From contig NZ_JAUOEL010000005.1 in assembly GCF_030540765.1 (NCBI RefSeq), positions 62,001-126,000 of the forward strand: a DNA stretch of 64,000 bases. The letters run 5' to 3'. A model generated the notes under the pieces. That model did no database searches, was not told the origin of the DNA, and saw only the letters and a list, made by a program, of their open reading frames with translations. Source of the stretch: Flavivirga jejuensis (GTDB lineage Bacteria > Bacteroidota > Bacteroidia > Flavobacteriales > Flavobacteriaceae). Shown one piece after another: positions 25,797 through 33,000 of this stretch (position 1 is the stretch's first letter; the number at the start of each line of letters is the position of its first letter). A program made the position numbers and the translations under genes.

Positions 25797-26969
25797 ATGG
25801 TTGATAAAGCATTTATAACATCCGAGATTTTAAAGTGGGCTAGAGAGTCTGCTAGAATCTCTGTGGAAGATGCTGCCAAAAAAGTTTCGGTATCGCCTGA
25901 AAGGTATTTGATTTGGGAGGATGGAAATGATTTCCCGACCATTCGACAAGCACAAATGTTGGCAAAAAGTTTTAGAAGACCATTTTCACTTTTCTTTTTA
26001 CCAGAAATTCCAAAAGACTTTCAACCACTTCAGGATTATAGAAGAAGTGATTCACAAAAATTAGATACAGCTTCATTATTTATTATTCGAGATGTTCAAG
26101 AAAAACAGAATTGGATAAGTGAATTATTCGAAGAAATTGGAGAGGACAAACTTCCCTTTGTTGGTAAATATTCTATAAATGATAATCCAGAAGTTGTTGC
26201 AAAAGATATATTAACCACTTTAAAGATTAATCCAAGTAGTTATCAAAAAACACCTATTAACGAATGGATTGACAAATCCGAAACAGCAGGAATATTTATA
26301 TCTAGAACAAGCTACTTACATTCAAGATTAGTTTTAGATAGAGATTTAATACAAGGATTTGCCATTGCCGACAAGTTTGCTCCTTTTGTTTTTGTGAATT
26401 CAAAAAATTGGAATGCACCACAACTTTTTACACTAGTTCACGAATTAGCACATATTTGGATAGCTAAATCAGGAATATCAAATGAAATAGATATTGACTT
26501 TAGCGACAAGCCTAAATCAAAATTTCATCCAGTAGAATTATTCTGTAACCAAGTTGCAGCTAATGCATTAATGCCAACGGAAATAATTACTCAATTTGGA
26601 ACAGATACATTTGACTCAAACAATTTGATTATCAAACAAGCAAATGAACTTGGAGTAAGTTCTTTTGCCTTATTAGTAAGAGCTTTAAACTTAAATTTAA
26701 TTAATCAACCTAAATACAAGGCACTTAAACAAGAATCTCAAGATGAATTTGAGAAATTTTTGGAAAGAGAAAAGATTAAAAAGGAAAAACAAAAAGAAAG
26801 AAAAGGTGGTCCAGACGCTTACCTTCTTCGATTAAATAAAAACAGTAAGCTATTTACAAGAATTGTAATGGATTCTTTTAATAATGGTTCACTTTCACCA
26901 TCAATTGCAAGTAACCTTCTTAACACGCAGATAAATAAATTCCAAAAATTTGAAAAACTGCTTGCCTAA
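25797..26969 (+). CDS. XRE/ImmA-IrrE metallopeptidase family protein (antitoxin-like partner)
   Basis: The 390-residue protein starts with an XRE-type HTH (~10-65, ISVEDAAKKVSVSPERYLIW). An ImmA/IrrE domain follows, with the zinc motif H215-E-L-A-H219 (FTLVHELAHIWIA) and a downstream glutamate-containing helix (EIDIDFSD ... VELFCNQVAANALMP). The lysine-rich tail runs from ~320 to 390. Together with the DUF4411 gene that starts in its own stop codon (TAATG overlap), it forms a known type of toxin-antitoxin pair, in which this protein should bind DNA and control or neutralise the partner. A promoter element sits 22 bases upstream. No signal peptide: cytoplasmic. Confidence 0.9.
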   Translation: MVDKAFITSEILKWARESARISVEDAAKKVSVSPERYLIWEDGNDFPTIRQAQMLAKSFRRPFSLFFLPEIPKDFQPLQDYRRSDSQKLDTASLFIIRDVQEKQNWISELFEEIGEDKLPFVGKYSINDNPEVVAKDILTTLKINPSSYQKTPINEWIDKSETAGIFISRTSYLHSRLVLDRDLIQGFAIADKFAPFVFVNSKNWNAPQLFTLVHELAHIWIAKSGISNEIDIDFSDKPKSKFHPVELFCNQVAANALMPTEIITQFGTDTFDSNNLIIKQANELGVSSFALLVRALNLNLINQPKYKALKQESQDEFEKFLEREKIKKEKQKERKGGPDAYLLRLNKNSKLFTRIVMDSFNNGSLSPSIASNLLNTQINKFQKFEKLLA

Positions 26970-27478
26970 TGTTCGAAGATGAAAAAGTAATTTATTGTAT
27001 TGATGCTAACATTCTTATTCAAGCTTGGCAAAAATATTACTCACCAGAAATTTGTCCATCATATTGGGACGTTTTAAATAATTTAGGGAAAAGAGGCGTA
27101 ATTTTTATTCCCGAATTGGTTTATGAAGAAATTGAGAAAGGAGAAGACAACCTATTTGAATGGCTGAAAAACAGCGATATTCCGATTAAAAAAATTGATG
27201 GTGAAGTAGCAAACTGTCTTAAAGAAATATATACATCAAATCCAAACCATAAATATTTAGTTTCAAGCAACGGAATTCACTCAAAAGCTGATCCTTGGGT
27301 AATTGCACACGCAATGAAAGAAAATGCAATTGTGGTAACAAAGGAAACAAAAGACTATTTCAAAAAACAAACCAAAATTAAAATCCCTCACGTTTGTGAT
27401 AATATGAATGTTAGTTGGATTGACGATTTCGAATTTATAAGGAATTTGAATATAAAATTCACTTGTAAATCGGAATAA
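26969..27478 (+). CDS. DUF4411 PIN-like putative toxin
   Basis: This 169-residue protein has PIN-like ribonuclease features: YCIDANILIQAW with D12 at the end of the first strand, acidic residues near E53-E57 (YEEIEKGED) and SKADPWVIAHAM with D108. IVVTKET and a C-terminal strand complete the fold. DUF4411 proteins pair with XRE/ImmA proteins as here; the ATG overlaps the upstream stop by one base, so translation is coupled. The likely activity is RNA cleavage in the cytoplasm, by family inference. Length is normal and nothing is broken. Confidence 0.85.
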   Translation: MFEDEKVIYCIDANILIQAWQKYYSPEICPSYWDVLNNLGKRGVIFIPELVYEEIEKGEDNLFEWLKNSDIPIKKIDGEVANCLKEIYTSNPNHKYLVSSNGIHSKADPWVIAHAMKENAIVVTKETKDYFKKQTKIKIPHVCDNMNVSWIDDFEFIRNLNIKFTCKSE

Positions 27479-27529
27479 AGCCAGTAAGCTAAAACGTATA
27501 TAATTTATTGCAGTTCTAGCCTACTTATG

Positions 27530-27547
27530 AAAATCCTCGCGGATTTT
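27530..27547 (+). terminator. Short hairpin after the toxin-antitoxin operon
   Basis: AAAATCC-TCGC-GGATTTT is a 7-bp stem with a 4-base loop followed by ATTTGGTTTT. It is a weak to moderate terminator 52 bases after the stop of the toxin gene. A further small palindrome (AAACTA-G-TAGTTT) lies at 27565-27577. Confidence 0.5.
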
Positions 27548-27621
27548 ATTTGGTTTTATTTGCTAAACTAGTAGTTTAACCACGTAACCAATTATAAACA
27601 CATTGGCAACAATTTCAGAAA

Positions 27622-28113
27622 ATGACGAAAAACCAAATCCAGACATTTGCAAAAAACTATTCTGACAAAGATTTTGACAGAATAAAATTTGACTGGAATG
27701 GAAAACACGAAGGCGACTTTGAAGATAAAAATTATGATTTCCGAATGAAACTTTGTGAAACGATAAAAAATGACTTCTCTTACTCTTCCGAAAAGTTAAT
27801 ACTTGACTTGTATCTCGAATTATCAAAATGTGCAAAAGAAACATTCGGAGTATATAACAGCTTTCATTTATTCGCCAATGAATTATTAGAAAGAACTGGA
27901 ATTAAATACTTTGATGAATATATTGAAGGAGCTTCAAAAAGTATGGATACTGGACTTTCAAGTGGACGTTTAGACTTGAGTAATGAAAGGGTTTCTGAAA
28001 TATTAAGTCATATAAAATCTAAAATGGCAAATTCTGAAAATGAATCTGAAATTAGAGGTTATGATTATATGCTAAAACGATTTGAATGGTTATCTGAAAA
28101 CAATGAAAAATAG
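27622..28113 (+). CDS. Hypothetical cytoplasmic protein, cassette-type context
   Basis: The 163-residue protein has no signal peptide or membrane segment. It is acidic and mainly helical, with DFDRIKFDWNGKHEGDFED at ~17-35 and FHLFANELLERTGIKYFDEY near 80-100. I do not recognise the family. It is preceded by TTGGCAACAATTTCAGAA, which resembles flanks often seen before isolated genes in Bacteroidetes genomes (recalled, unverified). It has no operon partner. Its position after a toxin-antitoxin pair and among repeats suggests accessory, laterally acquired DNA. An immunity-type role is possible but unsupported. Confidence 0.65.
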   Translation: MTKNQIQTFAKNYSDKDFDRIKFDWNGKHEGDFEDKNYDFRMKLCETIKNDFSYSSEKLILDLYLELSKCAKETFGVYNSFHLFANELLERTGIKYFDEYIEGASKSMDTGLSSGRLDLSNERVSEILSHIKSKMANSENESEIRGYDYMLKRFEWLSENNEK

Positions 28114-28339
28114 AGAACTCCATACAAGTTTACACCAAAAAGAGAAAGACAGAAAACCCAAAAAAAAAAATTAGGGTATTTTCCAATGAAGTATTTATTT
28201 CATATCTCTTAACAATATACGCTCTTATGGTTGGTCATCCAACAAAATAAATCTTCTATTAGAAAGAACTAATATACACCTCGTTAATATTTACTGTATT
28301 GGCTTAATCCTAACTAAACATCTAAAAATGGGTATATAA

Positions 28340-28558
28340 TTATTTAGAATTTACAATTCCTAAAAGGCTTAATCCATTTCTTAGCTCTTCTTCTACTTCC
28401 TTTATATCAATTACAGATCCCATAGAAGCCATATCTAATACATGGTATTTCATAGATTTTTTAAGAGCGTCCTCTAACAACTCAATAGCTCCGCTATCAG
28501 GGTTTTCTTTTTTAATGATTTTTAAAGCTGAAATTATTGATGATATATTGCTTTGCAT
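28340..28558 (-). CDS. Small hypothetical protein (72 residues)
   Basis: A minus-strand frame from ATG at 28558 encodes MQSNISSIISALKIIKKENP, then an amphipathic, strongly helical acidic/basic pattern (GAIELLEDALKKSMKYHVLD, later KEVEEELRNGLSLLG). There is no signal peptide or cysteine. Composition looks protein-like and the AT-rich upstream region contains TATATTTA, a near match to the -7 element. No homologous family is recognised. It could be a small regulatory or antitoxin-like protein, but nothing shows that. Confidence 0.5.
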   Translation of the reverse strand: MQSNISSIISALKIIKKENPDSGAIELLEDALKKSMKYHVLDMASMGSVIDIKEVEEELRNGLSLLGIVNSK

Positions 28559-28633
28559 GAAGTAAATTTTTTATAAATATAATAATTTAAAGTTTTATCA
28601 TTTAATTATTGTCTTTAGGATTCCAACCTAACC

Positions 28634-28654
28634 CCGCTAGCGCGGAAATGTTTT
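28634..28654. repeat. 21-base direct repeat flanking the toxin-antitoxin segment, copy 2
   Basis: CCGCTAGCGCGGAAATGTTT(T) differs from 25248-25268 at two positions. Here the first part also forms a short palindrome (CCGCTAGCGCGG). Confidence 0.6.
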
Positions 28655-28673
28655 CCGTGCCCGTAAGAAACTC

Positions 28674-28713
28674 AAAAAAGATTGCCAAAAAGATTAATTG
28701 ACAATCTTTTTTT
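28674..28713 (-). terminator. Intrinsic terminator of the minus-strand gene at 28720
   Basis: AAAAAAGATTG and CAATCTTTTTT form an ~11-bp stem around a 17-base loop. On the minus strand it lies just after the stop codon of the 96-residue frame (28720-29010) and ends in a T-run. Its A- and T-rich arms could work in both directions. Confidence 0.75.
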
Positions 28714-28719
28714 CAAAAA

Positions 28720-29010
28720 CTAATCTTGTCGGACAATATCACCCAACTTATCCATTAGTAGTTTGACATTAAATAAAATGGATTTTTCTTCATCCTCAAT
28801 AAACAAATGAGAATGGTAAAGTGCTGTGTTATGAACCCATTCTAAAGACTTGATGAGTTCTAAAGTGTCGTAAAAACTAATAAACTCCAACAGTTCTACC
28901 TGAGCGGTATATAAAAGCTTTTTGACTTTTTTCGATACGTTTCGTGCATCATCCGATGTATTGACCGACTTACATTTCGAACATACATTTTGACCATTTG
29001 AGTTTAGCAT
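28720..29010 (-). CDS. Small hypothetical protein downstream of a structured RNA
   Basis: The frame encodes 96 residues starting MLNSNGQNVCSKCKSVNTSD. A C-x-x-C pair (residues 10-13) at the N-terminus suggests half of a zinc knuckle. The rest is helical (KKVKKLLYTAQVELLEFISF and later LMDKLGDIV). No family recognised. The start codon lies 20 bases after the U-run of the structured RNA at 29030-29172, and an intrinsic terminator follows the stop, so RNA element, ORF and terminator form one compact unit. The RNA may be its leader, or an independent neighbour. Confidence 0.55.
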   Translation of the reverse strand: MLNSNGQNVCSKCKSVNTSDDARNVSKKVKKLLYTAQVELLEFISFYDTLELIKSLEWVHNTALYHSHLFIEDEEKSILFNVKLLMDKLGDIVRQD

Positions 29011-29029
29011 AATAATGGATTAAATGATT

Positions 29030-29172
29030 AATAAAAAGAGGACAGGTCACTGCTAAACTCATCAAAGCGATGCTTCGAAAGATCCCGAGACTTACACCCG
29101 TATGCCTGTCCAAAATTTTAATTTTAAATCGATGAAATAGTAATTGCATCATGACAATTTGATAAGTTTAGC
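29030..29172 (-). ncRNA. Structured pseudoknot RNA, copy 1
   Basis: On the minus strand, P1a (GCTAAACTTATCA, 29172-29160) pairs with P1b (29064-29052) over 13 bp with one wobble. P2a (GGACAGG, 29111-29105) pairs with P2b (CCTGTCC, 29046-29040). The order P1a-P2a-P1b-P2b is an H-type pseudoknot, and TCTTTTT follows P2b. P1a begins about 5 bases after a consensus promoter, so it would lie at the RNA 5' end. The 72-base core (29111-29040) aligns without gaps to copy 2, with compensatory changes in P2 and in a small hairpin (CTT-TCG-AAG). I cannot match it to a named RNA family. Confidence 0.75.
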
Positions 29173-29176
29173 ACTA

Positions 29177-29208
29177 CAAATGTAAGAAAAGAAACAACAC
29201 TCAACAAA
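29177..29208 (-). promoter_or_regulatory. Consensus promoter of structured RNA copy 1
   Basis: On the minus strand this reads TTTG, 20 bases, then TACATTTG: the Bacteroidetes -33/-7 pair at normal spacing. The predicted start coincides with the first base of P1a. Confidence 0.75.
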
Positions 29209-29216
29209 ATGTATAA

Positions 29217-29273
29217 TTCATCACTTTTTAGACCTTCTTTTTTTCTGCATAAATCAAAAGGCTTTAATCGTCT
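29217..29273. repeat. Dispersed repeat, copy 2
   Basis: Partner of 22900-22968: the first 28 bases are identical, the middle is 12 bases shorter, and the end GGCTTTAATCGTCT is shared. It lies between the two structured-RNA copies. Confidence 0.7.
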
Positions 29274-29317
29274 ATACCTTCAGCTCAATGTTATTAAGTC
29301 AAAGAGATTTATTCCAT

Positions 29318-29375
29318 TTTGTCACATGGATTGCTCGTCTGTGACTAATAACGATAGTTACTTTAGAGCTAAATA
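29318..29375 (-). repeat. Second copy of the 25524-25580 remnant
   Basis: The ~55 bases match 25524-25580 with few differences (shared TTGCTCGTCT, AGTTACTTTAGAGCTAAATA). On the minus strand both read SSKVTxVIxHRRAIHV. Here the frame runs on to WNKSL and stops. It is immediately downstream of structured RNA copy 2 in transcription order, where copy 1 has its small ORF. Confidence 0.7.
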
Positions 29376-29382
29376 AGATTAA

Positions 29383-29521
29383 TAAAAAGAGGAAAGGTCA
29401 CCGCAAACACATTCCAAGCGATGCCCAGACTGGTCTCGGGACTTGCACCCGTATGCCTTTCCAATATTTTCTGTTTAAGACTAATTTGTAGATTAGACCT
29501 CTGAATTTAAAATGTGTTTGC
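29383..29521 (-). ncRNA. Structured pseudoknot RNA, copy 2
   Basis: The same architecture as copy 1, about 350 bases upstream of it and on the same strand. P1a (GCAAACACATT, 29521-29511) pairs perfectly with P1b (29413-29403). P2a (GGAAAGG, 29462-29456) pairs with P2b (CCTTTCC, 29397-29391), followed by TCTTTTT. Relative to copy 1, P1 is almost wholly rewritten yet still pairs, P2 has a C-G to A-T exchange, and the small hairpin changes to CCA-GTC-TGG. The shared loops (GCATACGGGTG, CATCGCTT, GGTGA/AGTGA) are conserved, which implies selection on structure. It has its own promoter. Confidence 0.75.
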
Positions 29522-29525
29522 ATTA

Positions 29526-29559
29526 CAAATGTACCATTTAAAATAGTAAACAGAGCAAA
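29526..29559 (-). promoter_or_regulatory. Consensus promoter of structured RNA copy 2
   Basis: On the minus strand: TTTG, 22 bases, TACATTTG. The start site again falls on the first bases of P1a. Confidence 0.7.
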
Positions 29560-29774
29560 CCTAATTAGTGTGAATTCGTGAAACCTATCAACCGTCAGGT
29601 TAGTTCATGTCAAAATTTTCAACCCTATTTAAAACCAATAAAACCACTACTAACTACCCTCAACAAATGAAGTAGATCTAACATTAAAGGTTACTAAAAA
29701 TCAAGACTTTTCAATGTTTATGGCGCTTTATACTTCTATACGCAAAAATTAAATCTACAACATCTCCTTTTTTA

Positions 29775-29796
29775 ACCTATACAATACCACAACATT
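29775..29796 (+). promoter_or_regulatory. Conserved box A upstream of the glycosidase operon
   Basis: Contains CAATACCACAACATT and matches 20 of 22 bases with the box before susC. It lies ~255 bases before the start codon at 30050. Confidence 0.55.
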
Positions 29797-29900
29797 ACGT
29801 TTAAAAACGAAATTTTAAAGCTCCCAATACCGCTGTCAATTTACCAAACAAACCCTATAAATATTGTCGTTCTCGCAATAGAATGCTATGAATTTTAAGG

Positions 29901-29936
29901 ATGTATGATTTTTGTAGCGGTGTTTTTTACCAATTC
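29901..29936 (+). promoter_or_regulatory. Conserved box B / promoter region of the glycosidase operon
   Basis: TGTATGATTTTTGTAGCGGT is followed by a T-run and TACCAATT. It is almost the same as 50816-50849 and related to 15047-15075. Box A lies about 105 bases upstream, as at susC. Confidence 0.6.
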
Positions 29937-30049
29937 AACAACCAAACAGACTAAATTTATAATTCTCTAAAATGTCTTGGTTAAAATAATCCCGAAGCTT
30001 TAATCCTTAACCTTTTTTATAGAAAACTAACGTAAAAACGAATAATACT

Positions 30050-33000
30050 ATGAAAAACACTTTTCTAAGATTAGCACTTTTTTTATTTACAATAACGATA
30101 TGGTCTCAAGCCAATAAAGTATCCGTTGTAAGTAATGAAGAGGGCATGAAATTAGTTGTCAATGGAGAAGACTTCATGATTAATGGTATGAACTGGGATT
30201 ACATTCCTATTGGCACCAATACTGTGAATGCTAATTTCTGGAAAAAGTCCGATGATATCATCAAAGCAGGACTTGACACAGAAATGTCACTTTTAAAGAA
30301 CATGAATGTTAATGTTATACGCCAATATACAGGCGTTCCAGCAAAATGGATTCAATATATATATGAGAACTATGGTATTTACACCATGCTTAATCATTCT
30401 TTCGGGCGTTACGGTTTAACGCTTGATGGTGTGTGGACACCCGTAACTATCTATTCTGAACCTCGGACTCAAGCGTTTTTAATAGCCGAAATGGAGCAAT
30501 TAGTAAAAGACTATAAAGACACGCCAGGCCTATTACTATACTTACTTGGTAATGAAAATAACTACGGTTTATTTTGGGCAGGCGCAGAAACAGAAGATTT
30601 TCCTGATGAAGAAGAGAAAAAAAGAGAAGTAGGTGAAAAACGTGGCAGACCCATGTATAAACTCATGAACGATGTTGCTAAAAAAATGAAGGCTATGGAT
30701 GCATCCCACCCAGTAGCTATATGCAATGGCGATGTATTGTTCATCGATATTATTGCAGAAGAATGTAAAGACATTGACATATACGGAGTCAACTCATATC
30801 GAGGCCCTTCTTTTACCGACATGTTTAAGGTGGTTAAAGAAAAACTGAATAAACCTATTATGTTTACCGAGTTTGGCGCAGATGCATTCAATGCCATTGA
30901 AAATAAAGAAGATCAGAAATCTCAAGCCTATTATATGGTTGAAAACTGGAAAGAGATTTATGAAAATGCCGCTGGTTTAGAAAAAGAAGATAACTCTATA
31001 GGAGGGTTTACATTTCAATTTAGTGATGGTTGGTGGAAATTCGGTTTCGACAAAAGAGAAAATGCAGATGTACATGATAATAATGCCTCATGGGCTAACG
31101 GCGGATATGCTAGAGATTTAGCGCCTGGTGAAAATAATATGAACGAAGAATGGTTTGGTATCTGTGCCAAAGGACCAACCAGCGCAAGAGGATTGTACGA
31201 TTTATACCCACGGGCTGCCTATTACGCCCTAAAAGAAGCACACCAACTGAATCCATACCAAGAAGGTGTCACAGCAAAATTTGTAAAAGACCATTTTAAT
31301 AATATTCAATTAATGGATGCTGTTTTAAAAGCCAGAGGAGACAAAGCGGCTTTAAAAGGAAGTAGTTCAGATAAAATTAGACTAAGCAATTTAAGAGCAG
31401 AATTTACAACATACAATACAGGTGGTAATTTAATTACAACTCCAAGTGAAGCCAATCCAAATGAAACAGTATATCCAAATGAATTAGGTTTCGACCACAT
31501 GCAATCCTATTTTATTGGAGTTGAAGGAAATCCAACCTCTAATATGCGTGCCAACGTAAATTTCAATATTCTTGGCAATGTCGCCGAAAATCCTATTGAT
31601 GAAATTTTTTATGAAAACACAGGGCGTCCACTTTCAGTAAATACAGATGAAGGTAATGTAGATATTACAGACCCTAATCGCGTAAAAGTTTACAACGCCG
31701 AATTTGAATGGAAAGCTAAAGAGTTTGATTTAAGAGGTTTTTATAGAACAGGACATTACCATTGGGCTTACGAAGGTGATTTCTTCGGTCTATACCCGCA
31801 AGCTAATTATGGTCCAAATCTAGATATTTATAATGGAGAGATTCTTGGTTTTGAAGTTGATGGTAAAAAAGGCTTAAAAGGTTTAAAAGCCGCTTTTGGA
31901 CCTCAACTTTGGTGGGGCGCTAACCCTGCAATATTATTAAAATACAGTACAAAACTAGCTCATTTTGATGTTACAGGTGTATATCATGAAGATATAGACG
32001 ATGTTGGCGAAGCCGTAACTTCAATTGCAGTGCCGCTTCCAAAAACACGTAGAGTAACCCTTCATGCCAAAAAAAAATTTGGAGCATTTGAGATAGAAGC
32101 TGGTGGTATTTGGGGTGGACACCCTTTAAATGGACGAAAGTTTCAAGTTTCCGAAGGCGAACCAGGAAATTATATTATTTATAATGATGAAATCAATGAA
32201 AAAGATAATTGGGGCGCAAAAGCTAAAATAACCTTTCAAAAAGGACTATTTAATTGGTATGCTCAAGGAGCTACCATGGGGTTAGTTGCTAACGGAGGAG
32301 CCGATCAAACACAAACATTTACAGGCTGGAAACTTAAAGACACAGGAAGCGGAAATCAAAATAACGTTCTTACAGGGTTTACATATACCATAGGAAACTT
32401 TCAAATTGCACCAAACTTCTTATGGCAAAAACCAATTGTTGATGCCATGCCAAATGATGTTGGAGCACCAGGAAGACTTAGAAACATTCAAGACGATCCC
32501 TTTGCTGTAAGAGCAAATAGAGAAACAACAGCTGGAGAGATTTTATTTACCTACGATCCAACTCCAGGAACTTGGATGTACGAATGGGATAACGATAGAG
32601 CTGAAGACGCAAAATTTGCTTTTAATTTCGGTTTTGTTTTTCGTCATCATCCAACAGCTCAAGATGCTGCCATCGGGTTTTTAGCAGACCGTACCTCTTT
32701 TGCCTTTCCTAATGCCGCTCCCGCACAAGATTTATGGGAAGCACATACACGTATGGTATCTAAAGTAAGTCCAGATTTAGGACTTATCGCAAATTTTTAT
32801 GCTGGAAACGCACAATCCAATGGTAGTGACGAAAGACTGATTAAACGTGTTGGTGGTGATATTAGATTAATATACAATAAACTTAAACTAATACACTCCT
32901 TTAAAATTAATGACTGGGGGCCTTTCGATTATCATCGTGATTTTAACTTAACCTATCCCGTACAGCTCATGTTAGATGTATCAACATCTATAGGGAAGCC

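Follow-up and report, generated by a model that had tools for sequence, protein, structure and literature searches.

The question raised by this stretch of the Flavivirga jejuensis genome (the window, 64,000 nucleotides) is what two structured RNAs lying in tandem on its minus strand are for, and what they act upon. A sequence-only reading had described them as a promoter-led pair of common architecture, and both RNA genes are indeed where it placed them, copy A at 29521-29384 and copy B at 29172-29033. Each RNA has a length of about 138 nt in which interleaved P1/P2 pairing is accompanied by two hairpins, and the order shared by both is P1a at the predicted +1, an A/U-rich linker, P2a, a T-loop-like hairpin (CGGG-UGYAAGU-CYCG), the hairpin H2 (RRGC-AUC-GCUU), P1b, RGUGA, P2b and a U-run. 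The view that each has its own promoter holds in that P1a lies 12 nt downstream of the start of a promoter-like TACATTTG box in both (P1a beginning at 29521 and 29172), and in 82 of 106 relatives a TAnnTT box starts exactly 12 nt ahead of P1a. What had been overlooked is a third copy of the P1a sequence, P1c, at the start of an ORF 3' of the RNA, together with that ORF and with its absence behind copy A; the pair is not just free-standing, the unit being promoter, RNA, ORF and terminator. The parts, all on the minus strand, are as follows.

29522..29533, minus: copy A promoter-like −7 element TACATTTG plus 4 nt (sequence coordinates)
29384..29521, minus: copy A RNA, P1a to U-run, an orphan without an ORF bearing a matching P1c (97% identity to locus L013 over 160 bp)
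29511..29521, minus: copy A P1a, putative decoy of the target sequence, at the predicted +1 (sequence coordinates)
29403..29413, minus: copy A P1b, predicted antisense arm (13-copy alignment and coordinates)
29173..29184, minus: copy B promoter-like −7 element TACATTTG plus 4 nt (sequence coordinates)
29160..29172, minus: copy B P1a, putative decoy, predicted +1 at 29172 (alignment and coordinates)
29105..29111, minus: copy B P2a, GGACAGG (13- and 44-copy alignments)
29086..29100, minus: copy B hairpin CGGG-UGUAAGU-CUCG, which we take to be T-loop-like (13- and 44-copy alignments)
29081..29084, minus: copy B segment b', GAUC, partner GGUC in the ORF with one G.U (complementarity scans and coordinates)
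29065..29075, minus: copy B H2 hairpin, AAGC-AUC-GCUU (13-copy alignment)
29052..29064, minus: copy B P1b, predicted antisense arm with P1a or P1c as alternative partners (helix counts and coordinates)
29033..29046, minus: copy B P2b, CCUGUCC, then the U-run (13- and 44-copy alignments)
28999..29008, minus: copy B P1c, GCTAAACTCA, its first base the G of the AUG (29010-29008), fully Watson-Crick complementary to P1b (sequence)
28992..28995, minus: copy B b site, GGTC, candidate second antisense target (complementarity test and coordinates)
28720..29010, minus: downstream ORF of 96 aa with CxxC near the N-terminus, a three-helix C-terminus in the structure model and no family match
28674..28709, minus: intrinsic-terminator-like hairpin 3' of the ORF, at the 3' edge of the conserved cassette (by eye; homology ends here)

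That the fold is maintained by selection, as had been argued from the two copies, is borne out in an alignment of 13 copies which includes both of those in the window (20 pairs, 260 pair cells): 99.2% of the pair cells are kept against a shuffled mean of 90.9, a level equalled in 0 of 500 shuffles, and cells changed on both sides number 23 (shuffled mean 6.7), with 4 pairs showing a both-sided change, a figure matched by 220 of the 500 shuffles. Sliding the partners by 1-3 columns cuts pairing to 43-57%, and the interleaved order of an H-type pseudoknot is upheld. Among 44 non-redundant copies pairing stands at 97% in P2 and 95.5% in the T-stem; cells changed on both sides number 86 in P2 (mean of shuffles 23.8, maximum 33) and 20 in the T-stem (shuffled maximum 10), and U makes up 82-86% at offsets 2-4 past P2b. 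Compensatory changes in P2, the T-stem, P1a:P1b and P1c:P1b exceed all 200 shuffles of the 44 non-redundant members, and because P1a and P1c were chosen as best helices in that shuffle test a stricter control with swapped P1b sequences was made, given below. Between the two window copies themselves P1 is nearly rewritten yet paired in both, and P2 carries the exchange described earlier (GGAAAGG/CCTTTCC vs GGACAGG/CCTGTCC), but the covariation claimed for the small hairpin does not hold up, H2 differing between copies A and B only by a one-sided change of A-U to G-U. Minimum free energy folding of the single copies gives modest z-scores of -2.21 and -0.78.

The RNA had been left without a named class, and this agrees with Rfam 15, which over window positions 26000-33000 (E ≤ 5) gave no match overlapping the RNA and none to RF01695; likewise neither a match over the RNA nor RF01695 came from 11 related loci (E ≤ 2) or 4 phage loci (E ≤ 5). 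The Rfam matches listed lie outside the RNA and all score below gathering except one tRNA. With no Rfam 15 match over the RNA, membership of a known Rfam class was rejected. The placing of P1a inside a small coding ORF was also rejected, reading frames among the relatives being, by eye, not conserved.

Homologues with paired P1 and P2, which the sequence-only reading had expected of a functional RNA, were sought by covariance model and by pattern and found in Bacteroidota genomes and phages. There is a third copy elsewhere in the same genome, and with the own genome counted the RNA is present in 4 of 12 genomes of the genus, while the covariance model of the 13 copies has matches in 4 of 397 family genomes and 11 of 395 class genomes. 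At class level the weakest two model hits are L045, which fits the scheme by eye, and L046, which does not; L046 was dropped, as were the doubtful protein hits L022-L024. The core search pattern (GGCANANNGGUGNAAGUCC, 20-50 nt, GUGAC) fixed the hairpin loop, the first pair of P2 and the two inner pairs of the T-stem and left the rest of P2, P1a, P1b and P1c free, and it found 24 viral contigs and at least 119 stretches of genome contigs; constancy of the loop UGNAAGU among members found in this way is not evidence, because the pattern fixed the loop. A relaxed viral pattern gave 46 stretches, 22 of them new loci, which comprise 18 distinct rows with 0 members and 4 identical copies of these.

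Membership was defined by a P2 of at least 6 bp with a P1c helix of at least 7 bp, and was scored in 158 distinct matches, identical copies being removed. Among the matches listed 123 of the 158 are members (24 viral, 99 genomic) and 35 are non-members, the two groups being well separated with few rows between. Of the non-members, L151 and L161 resemble copies without P1c and L153 a copy with a poor P2, and these three were excluded from the counts; L105, L107, L130, L140 and L188 are identical copies of members with no row of their own. The record titles of the genomic members, among the matches listed, are of Bacteroidota (Dyadobacter, Fulvivirga, Muricauda/Allomuricauda/Flagellimonas, Pedobacter, Larkinella, Flavivirga, Aquimarina and others), the exceptions being L150 in a MAG labelled Dojkabacteria and, in one labelled Alphaproteobacteria, L188, which is identical to member L157; both labels may be binning errors. 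Blastn of window positions 29003-29200 against phage and plasmid records gave no match. In Fulvivirga, L138 (888 and 1643, plus-strand offsets) and L168 (1116 and 1675) are closely spaced cassettes whose neighbours differ in P1 type.

P1b apparently has a second partner, at a start codon. In copy B the three related sequences are P1a GCUAAACUUAUCA, P1b UGAUGAGUUUAGC and, in the ORF, AUGCUAAACUCAAAUGG. The search for P1c made no reference to AUG, and in 111 of the 123 members among the matches listed the AUG falls in exact register, the last C of P1b pairing with the G of AUG; 117 of 123 have an A or G 3' of P1b, a base able to pair with the U. Of 44 non-redundant copies 95% have a maximal P1c:P1b helix of at least 9 bp, compared with 4.5% of the 512 swapped controls, and for P1a:P1b the figures are 91% (n=44) and 5.9% (n=512), each control helix being maximised over the same windows with the P1b of another member. 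From this excess it follows that P1b has two mutually exclusive partners, one of them over the start codon. The 67 P1 triples hold 38 distinct P1b 9-mers. The complementarity of P1b and P1c extends to 16 bp, the script maximum, in the Dyadobacter loci L082, L085, L116, L126, L129 and L167.

The two partners of P1b are alike but not the same. Of 67 unique triples, 33 have a G.U within the first nine positions of P1a:P1b alone, 1 of P1c:P1b alone, 4 of both helices and 29 of neither, an asymmetry with p 4e-9 when kinship is ignored, many triples being related, and of 15 vs 1 among 31 (p 5e-4) in the non-redundant set. Where P1a and P1c differ, 35 of 51 differences are a U in P1a for a C in P1c opposite G, and the wobbles concentrate at the inner end of P1, in positions 9 and 12. 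By sequence, then, the lock formed by P1a and P1b appears to be tuned, P1a being a slightly weakened copy of the target of P1b. Mean helix length is 12.3 bp for P1a:P1b and 10.0 for P1c:P1b. As 14-nt duplexes the two have similar energies (-16.7 and -14.8 kcal/mol), P1a being the stronger in 49 of 67; over ten bases, with the U of AUG added to the P1c strand, P1c is stronger in 36 of 67 and equal in 17 of 67. In the transcript context with forced states the lock is lower in 24 of 31 and the target state in 7 of 31, with 11 within 3 kcal/mol. Unforced folds that include P1a give the lock in 8, the target state in 10 and neither in 17 (n=35), where the lock may be undercounted because its register was not adjusted, and without P1a the target state appears in 20 of 35. 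These modelled energies, from which P2 and tertiary contacts are left out, do not say which of the two states prevails.

A scan for further conserved complementarity gave one clear excess cell (7 vs 1.0). The bases directly 3' of the T-stem, b', match the ORF directly 3' of P1c, b, and the pairs of b' with b come in several types: GACC:GGUC (many genomic copies), GUCC:GGAC, GCUC:GAGC, GACU:AGUC, GGCU:AGCC, GCAC:GUGC and CGUC:GACG. Scored in any register, the real pairs average 11.35 and swapped pairs 9.87 (sd 0.35, maximum 11.21 of 200). In a fixed register 21 of the 36 non-redundant copies match, nine different 4-mers being represented, and 15 do not, against a swapped mean of 3.4 and maximum of 10 of 2000, a test which is not independent because the register was picked on the same copies; outside the GACC class 16 of 30 match (swapped maximum 9). 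The b':b and P1b:P1c helices are antiparallel-compatible with H2 between them, and the unconstrained fold of copy B from P1a into the ORF is a three-way junction made up of H2, b':b and P1b:P1c, the last 11 bp long and extending to the U of AUG; in this fold 29084-29081 pair with 28992-28995 and 29061-29051 with 28999-29009. GGTC stands in frame near the start in 52 of 64 members with a GACC b' and is followed mostly by Gln or Pro codons, and the b site may explain an NGQ/NGP-like motif retained in the proteins. A third complementarity, of GGCANAC with ORF positions +18..+48, was tried and rejected, the best helix there averaging 3.7 (n=31) and elsewhere in the ORF 4.0 (n=155).

As to which genes would be addressed, the first downstream gene of at least 130 aa is an antirepressor in 14 of the 24 phage loci. 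Only this first gene was tested, in 21 of the 24 (L052, L061 and L068 have no such ORF in the stretch), and in 7 of the 21 it is no antirepressor. The domains are Rha (L054, L056, L065, L071), AntA (L063, L069), KilA-N (L062, L073), Bro-N (L053, L059, L066, L067, L074) and P22_AR_N (L070). Upstream, 0 of 10 tested proteins (33 listed) carry an antirepressor domain. In the phage loci the antirepressors follow the RNA directly or past one or two small ORFs; in L054, L056, L062, L063 and L071 the order is RNA, small ORF, antirepressor, with 4-nt overlaps or 2-5 nt gaps, and because the small ORF overlaps or almost touches the antirepressor blocking the first ORF could have a polar effect. Relatives found by the covariance model precede a Rha protein (L044) and an Ant-like protein (L041, with a Pfam ORF6N match that stays under the cut-off and a PHROGs anti-repressor hit at E 4e-7). 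SymE lies downstream in L045, found by the model, and L101, found by the pattern, and not in the window. In phage contig IMGVR_UViG_3300027891_000600 there are two copies, L058 and L072, with different P1, both of which precede similar proteins of 112-114 aa, the P1c of L058 beginning a few bases later (AUGUUACCAACAG). Viral contig L052 encodes a CAP12/Pycsar-type TIR effector (PF10137; 6411-7925, plus strand) immediately upstream of the RNA, and a defence link is possible there.

The window copies are without an antirepressor. The common chromosomal product, as in the window, is a family of proteins of 80-125 aa, of which 67 distinct sequences match its motif. The 96-aa protein (28720-29010) is modelled at a mean pLDDT of 75.3 with three C-terminal helices; the model has no PDB or viral match at E ≤ 0.001, and the sequence has no PDB match below E 1 and no NCBIfam or PHROGs hit. 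An alignment of the chromosomal small proteins with phage small proteins (hhalign probability 50%, E 1.6e-4) is suggestive only of a relationship. The 72-aa ORF after the cassette (window 28340-28558, minus) gave neither a Pfam hit over the cut-off nor one in NCBIfam.

The fold, the three-way complementarity, the AUG register, the second segment and the gene linkage, as read in the compared sequences, fit best with a leader RNA carrying antisense segments against the gene transcribed with it, functionally like the C4 RNA and self-locked, which would silence the ORF and a closely following antirepressor, and we consider this the probable explanation. P1b is complementary to the start codon with codons 2-4 (P1c), and b' to the few codons that follow (b). 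In a fresh transcript the P1a:P1b and P2 pseudoknot would lock P1b and leave the AUG open; P1b would then swap P1a for P1c, with help from b':b and from the weakness of P1a:P1b at its inner end, either within its own mRNA, in cis, or on a second copy, in trans, as in C4, the latter if the RNA ends at the U-run after P2. Pairing of P1b with P1c would bury the AUG and the codons after it, leaving the ORF untranslated and the closely following antirepressor silent. In a lysogen, RNA from the promoter of the unit might in this manner keep the antirepressor off, and a phage that enters with a different P1c would escape; the window's chromosomal copies would be small cassettes of this module that lack the antirepressor. 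We infer the direction of regulation, the partner exchange, the action in trans and the role in lysogeny or immunity from base pairing and from the precedent of C4. The RNA's relatives precede lysogeny-control genes in many Bacteroidota phages, and the RNA therefore resembles an undescribed phage immunity switch. The wider proposal, of a Bacteroidota-wide undescribed class of self-locked antisense RNAs, bistable pseudoknots with a tuned target-mimic cage, serving in temperate phages as an antirepressor (immunity) switch and in chromosomes as RNA and small-protein cassettes of about 550 bp, seems to us evenly poised.

A ligand-sensing translational riboswitch, in which the pseudoknot and T-loop-like hairpin form the aptamer, P1b:P1c sequesters the start codon, and a metabolite or host signal turns the gene on by stabilising P1a:P1b, would account for the compact conserved core, the pseudoknot and the two mutually exclusive helices of similar energy, and the last of these, one covering the start codon, is also what the RNA has in common with known pseudoknot-aptamer translational riboswitches. 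It differs from them in that no metabolic linkage is seen, the targets being antirepressors, SymE and family-less small proteins with no metabolic or transport genes among those tested, many of which belong to no known family, and in that the second complementarity, b' with codons inside the coding region, is one that an expression platform does not need. P1 is moreover very variable, and the true extent of the core is uncertain because the search pattern fixed part of it; we regard a riboswitch as unlikely. Less plausible by a good way, and to our minds improbable, is an autoregulated leader whose translation is controlled by the small downstream protein, or a host protein, binding the hairpin or pseudoknot: the CxxC of the 96-aa protein, a sub-threshold Pfam zinc-ribbon match in a relative (E 0.083) and the family's presence behind many genomic copies would suit it, but the same RNA precedes unrelated proteins (Bro-N, Rha, ORF6N/Ant-like, SymE and others), and a single binding partner is unfitting unless it belongs to the host.

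Promoter, RNA, ORF and terminator make up about 550 bp, and copy B aligns with L002, L013, L016 and L017 over approximately 28666-29220 and no further, L015 and L014 aligning over shorter parts; homology to L002, L013, L015, L016 and L017 stops at 28665-28674, and the genes around the cassette differ between loci. At 28666-29220 the unit ends near the same places in four other loci, and there is no obvious recombinase. Copy A is the RNA alone, and its closest relative, L013 from another species of the genus, retains the ORF with a matching P1c. Two results weigh against action in trans. A search of the own genome for a trans target of copy A gave 14 hits against 13 for a reversed control, none of them clear. 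Sharing of P1b within genomes, which incompatibility through pairing in trans should make rare, is not avoided, an 8-mer being common to 4 of 49 pairs where permutation expects 2.8 (genome G663 represented by 3 of its 4 copies, other genomes by their copies in the collection). Elsewhere in the window (25797-27478, plus) an XRE/ImmA-IrrE-like protein of 390 aa is directly followed by a PIN-like protein of 169 aa, a pair near the RNA cassettes which by eye looks toxin-antitoxin-like. That the RNA is a free regulator or part of a mobile cassette, its complementarity to the ORF start left by sequence copying (gene conversion or insertion) and not by regulation, would agree with unit ends at similar places amid different surroundings and with copy A lacking an ORF, but copying would equalise P1a and P1c, the differences of which are directed, with U in P1a where P1c has C facing a G, and b' likewise covaries with b, which makes this highly improbable.

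The proposed self-locked antisense leader can be set beside known systems. In open-licence PubMed Central, by title or start of abstract, no description of the RNA was found; to our knowledge a self-lock by target mimicry is new, and lysogeny control in Bacteroidota phages is poorly known, where this RNA offers a concrete, searchable switch upstream of antirepressors. The target specificity may be readable from about nine bases, and superinfection immunity groups could therefore be predictable and open to test. SymR of the SymE/SymR type I toxin-antitoxin system is an antisense gene on the other strand; SymE homologues occur downstream in L101 and L045, and unlike SymR the Bacteroidota RNA is a same-strand leader. 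The sar gene is likewise encoded opposite its target. The sar RNA of phage P22, of 68/69 nt, exerts antisense control of antirepressor translation (PMC12197685). Both RNAs would be antisense to antirepressor translation, the Bacteroidota one lying on the same strand and ahead of its target. Co-transcription is found too with c4, which lies upstream of icd and ant. Processing by RNase P and an action in trans that sets immunity specificity are further marks of C4. The C4 RNA of P1/P7 is an antisense RNA from a larger transcript with two short antisense segments, the target being the antirepressor operon with its small ORF icd and ant, and has a variable antisense part on a constant scaffold, with scattered chromosomal copies as in Acinetobacter (PMC5320573, PMC12197685, PMC8201110); PMC2864571 records it for Proteobacteria and phages. 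Like C4 (RF01695), the Bacteroidota RNA has two antisense segments against the target's translation start region (P1b:P1c in 95%, b':b in 21 of 36), and in 14 of 24 phage loci, not at the window copies, an antirepressor operon follows it on the same strand. Unlike C4 it is a pseudoknot of about 138 nt and not three stem-loops of 77 nt, it has no RF01695 match, its target is the AUG with codons 2-8, it carries a decoy of the target at its 5' end, and it belongs to Bacteroidota and not Proteobacteria. It is not filed as C4 because the covariance model and architecture of C4 do not fit it, although by function C4 is its nearest known RNA; if the reading is right, the strategy of C4, an antisense RNA made together with its target, would here be carried out on an unrelated scaffold with a target-mimic lock.
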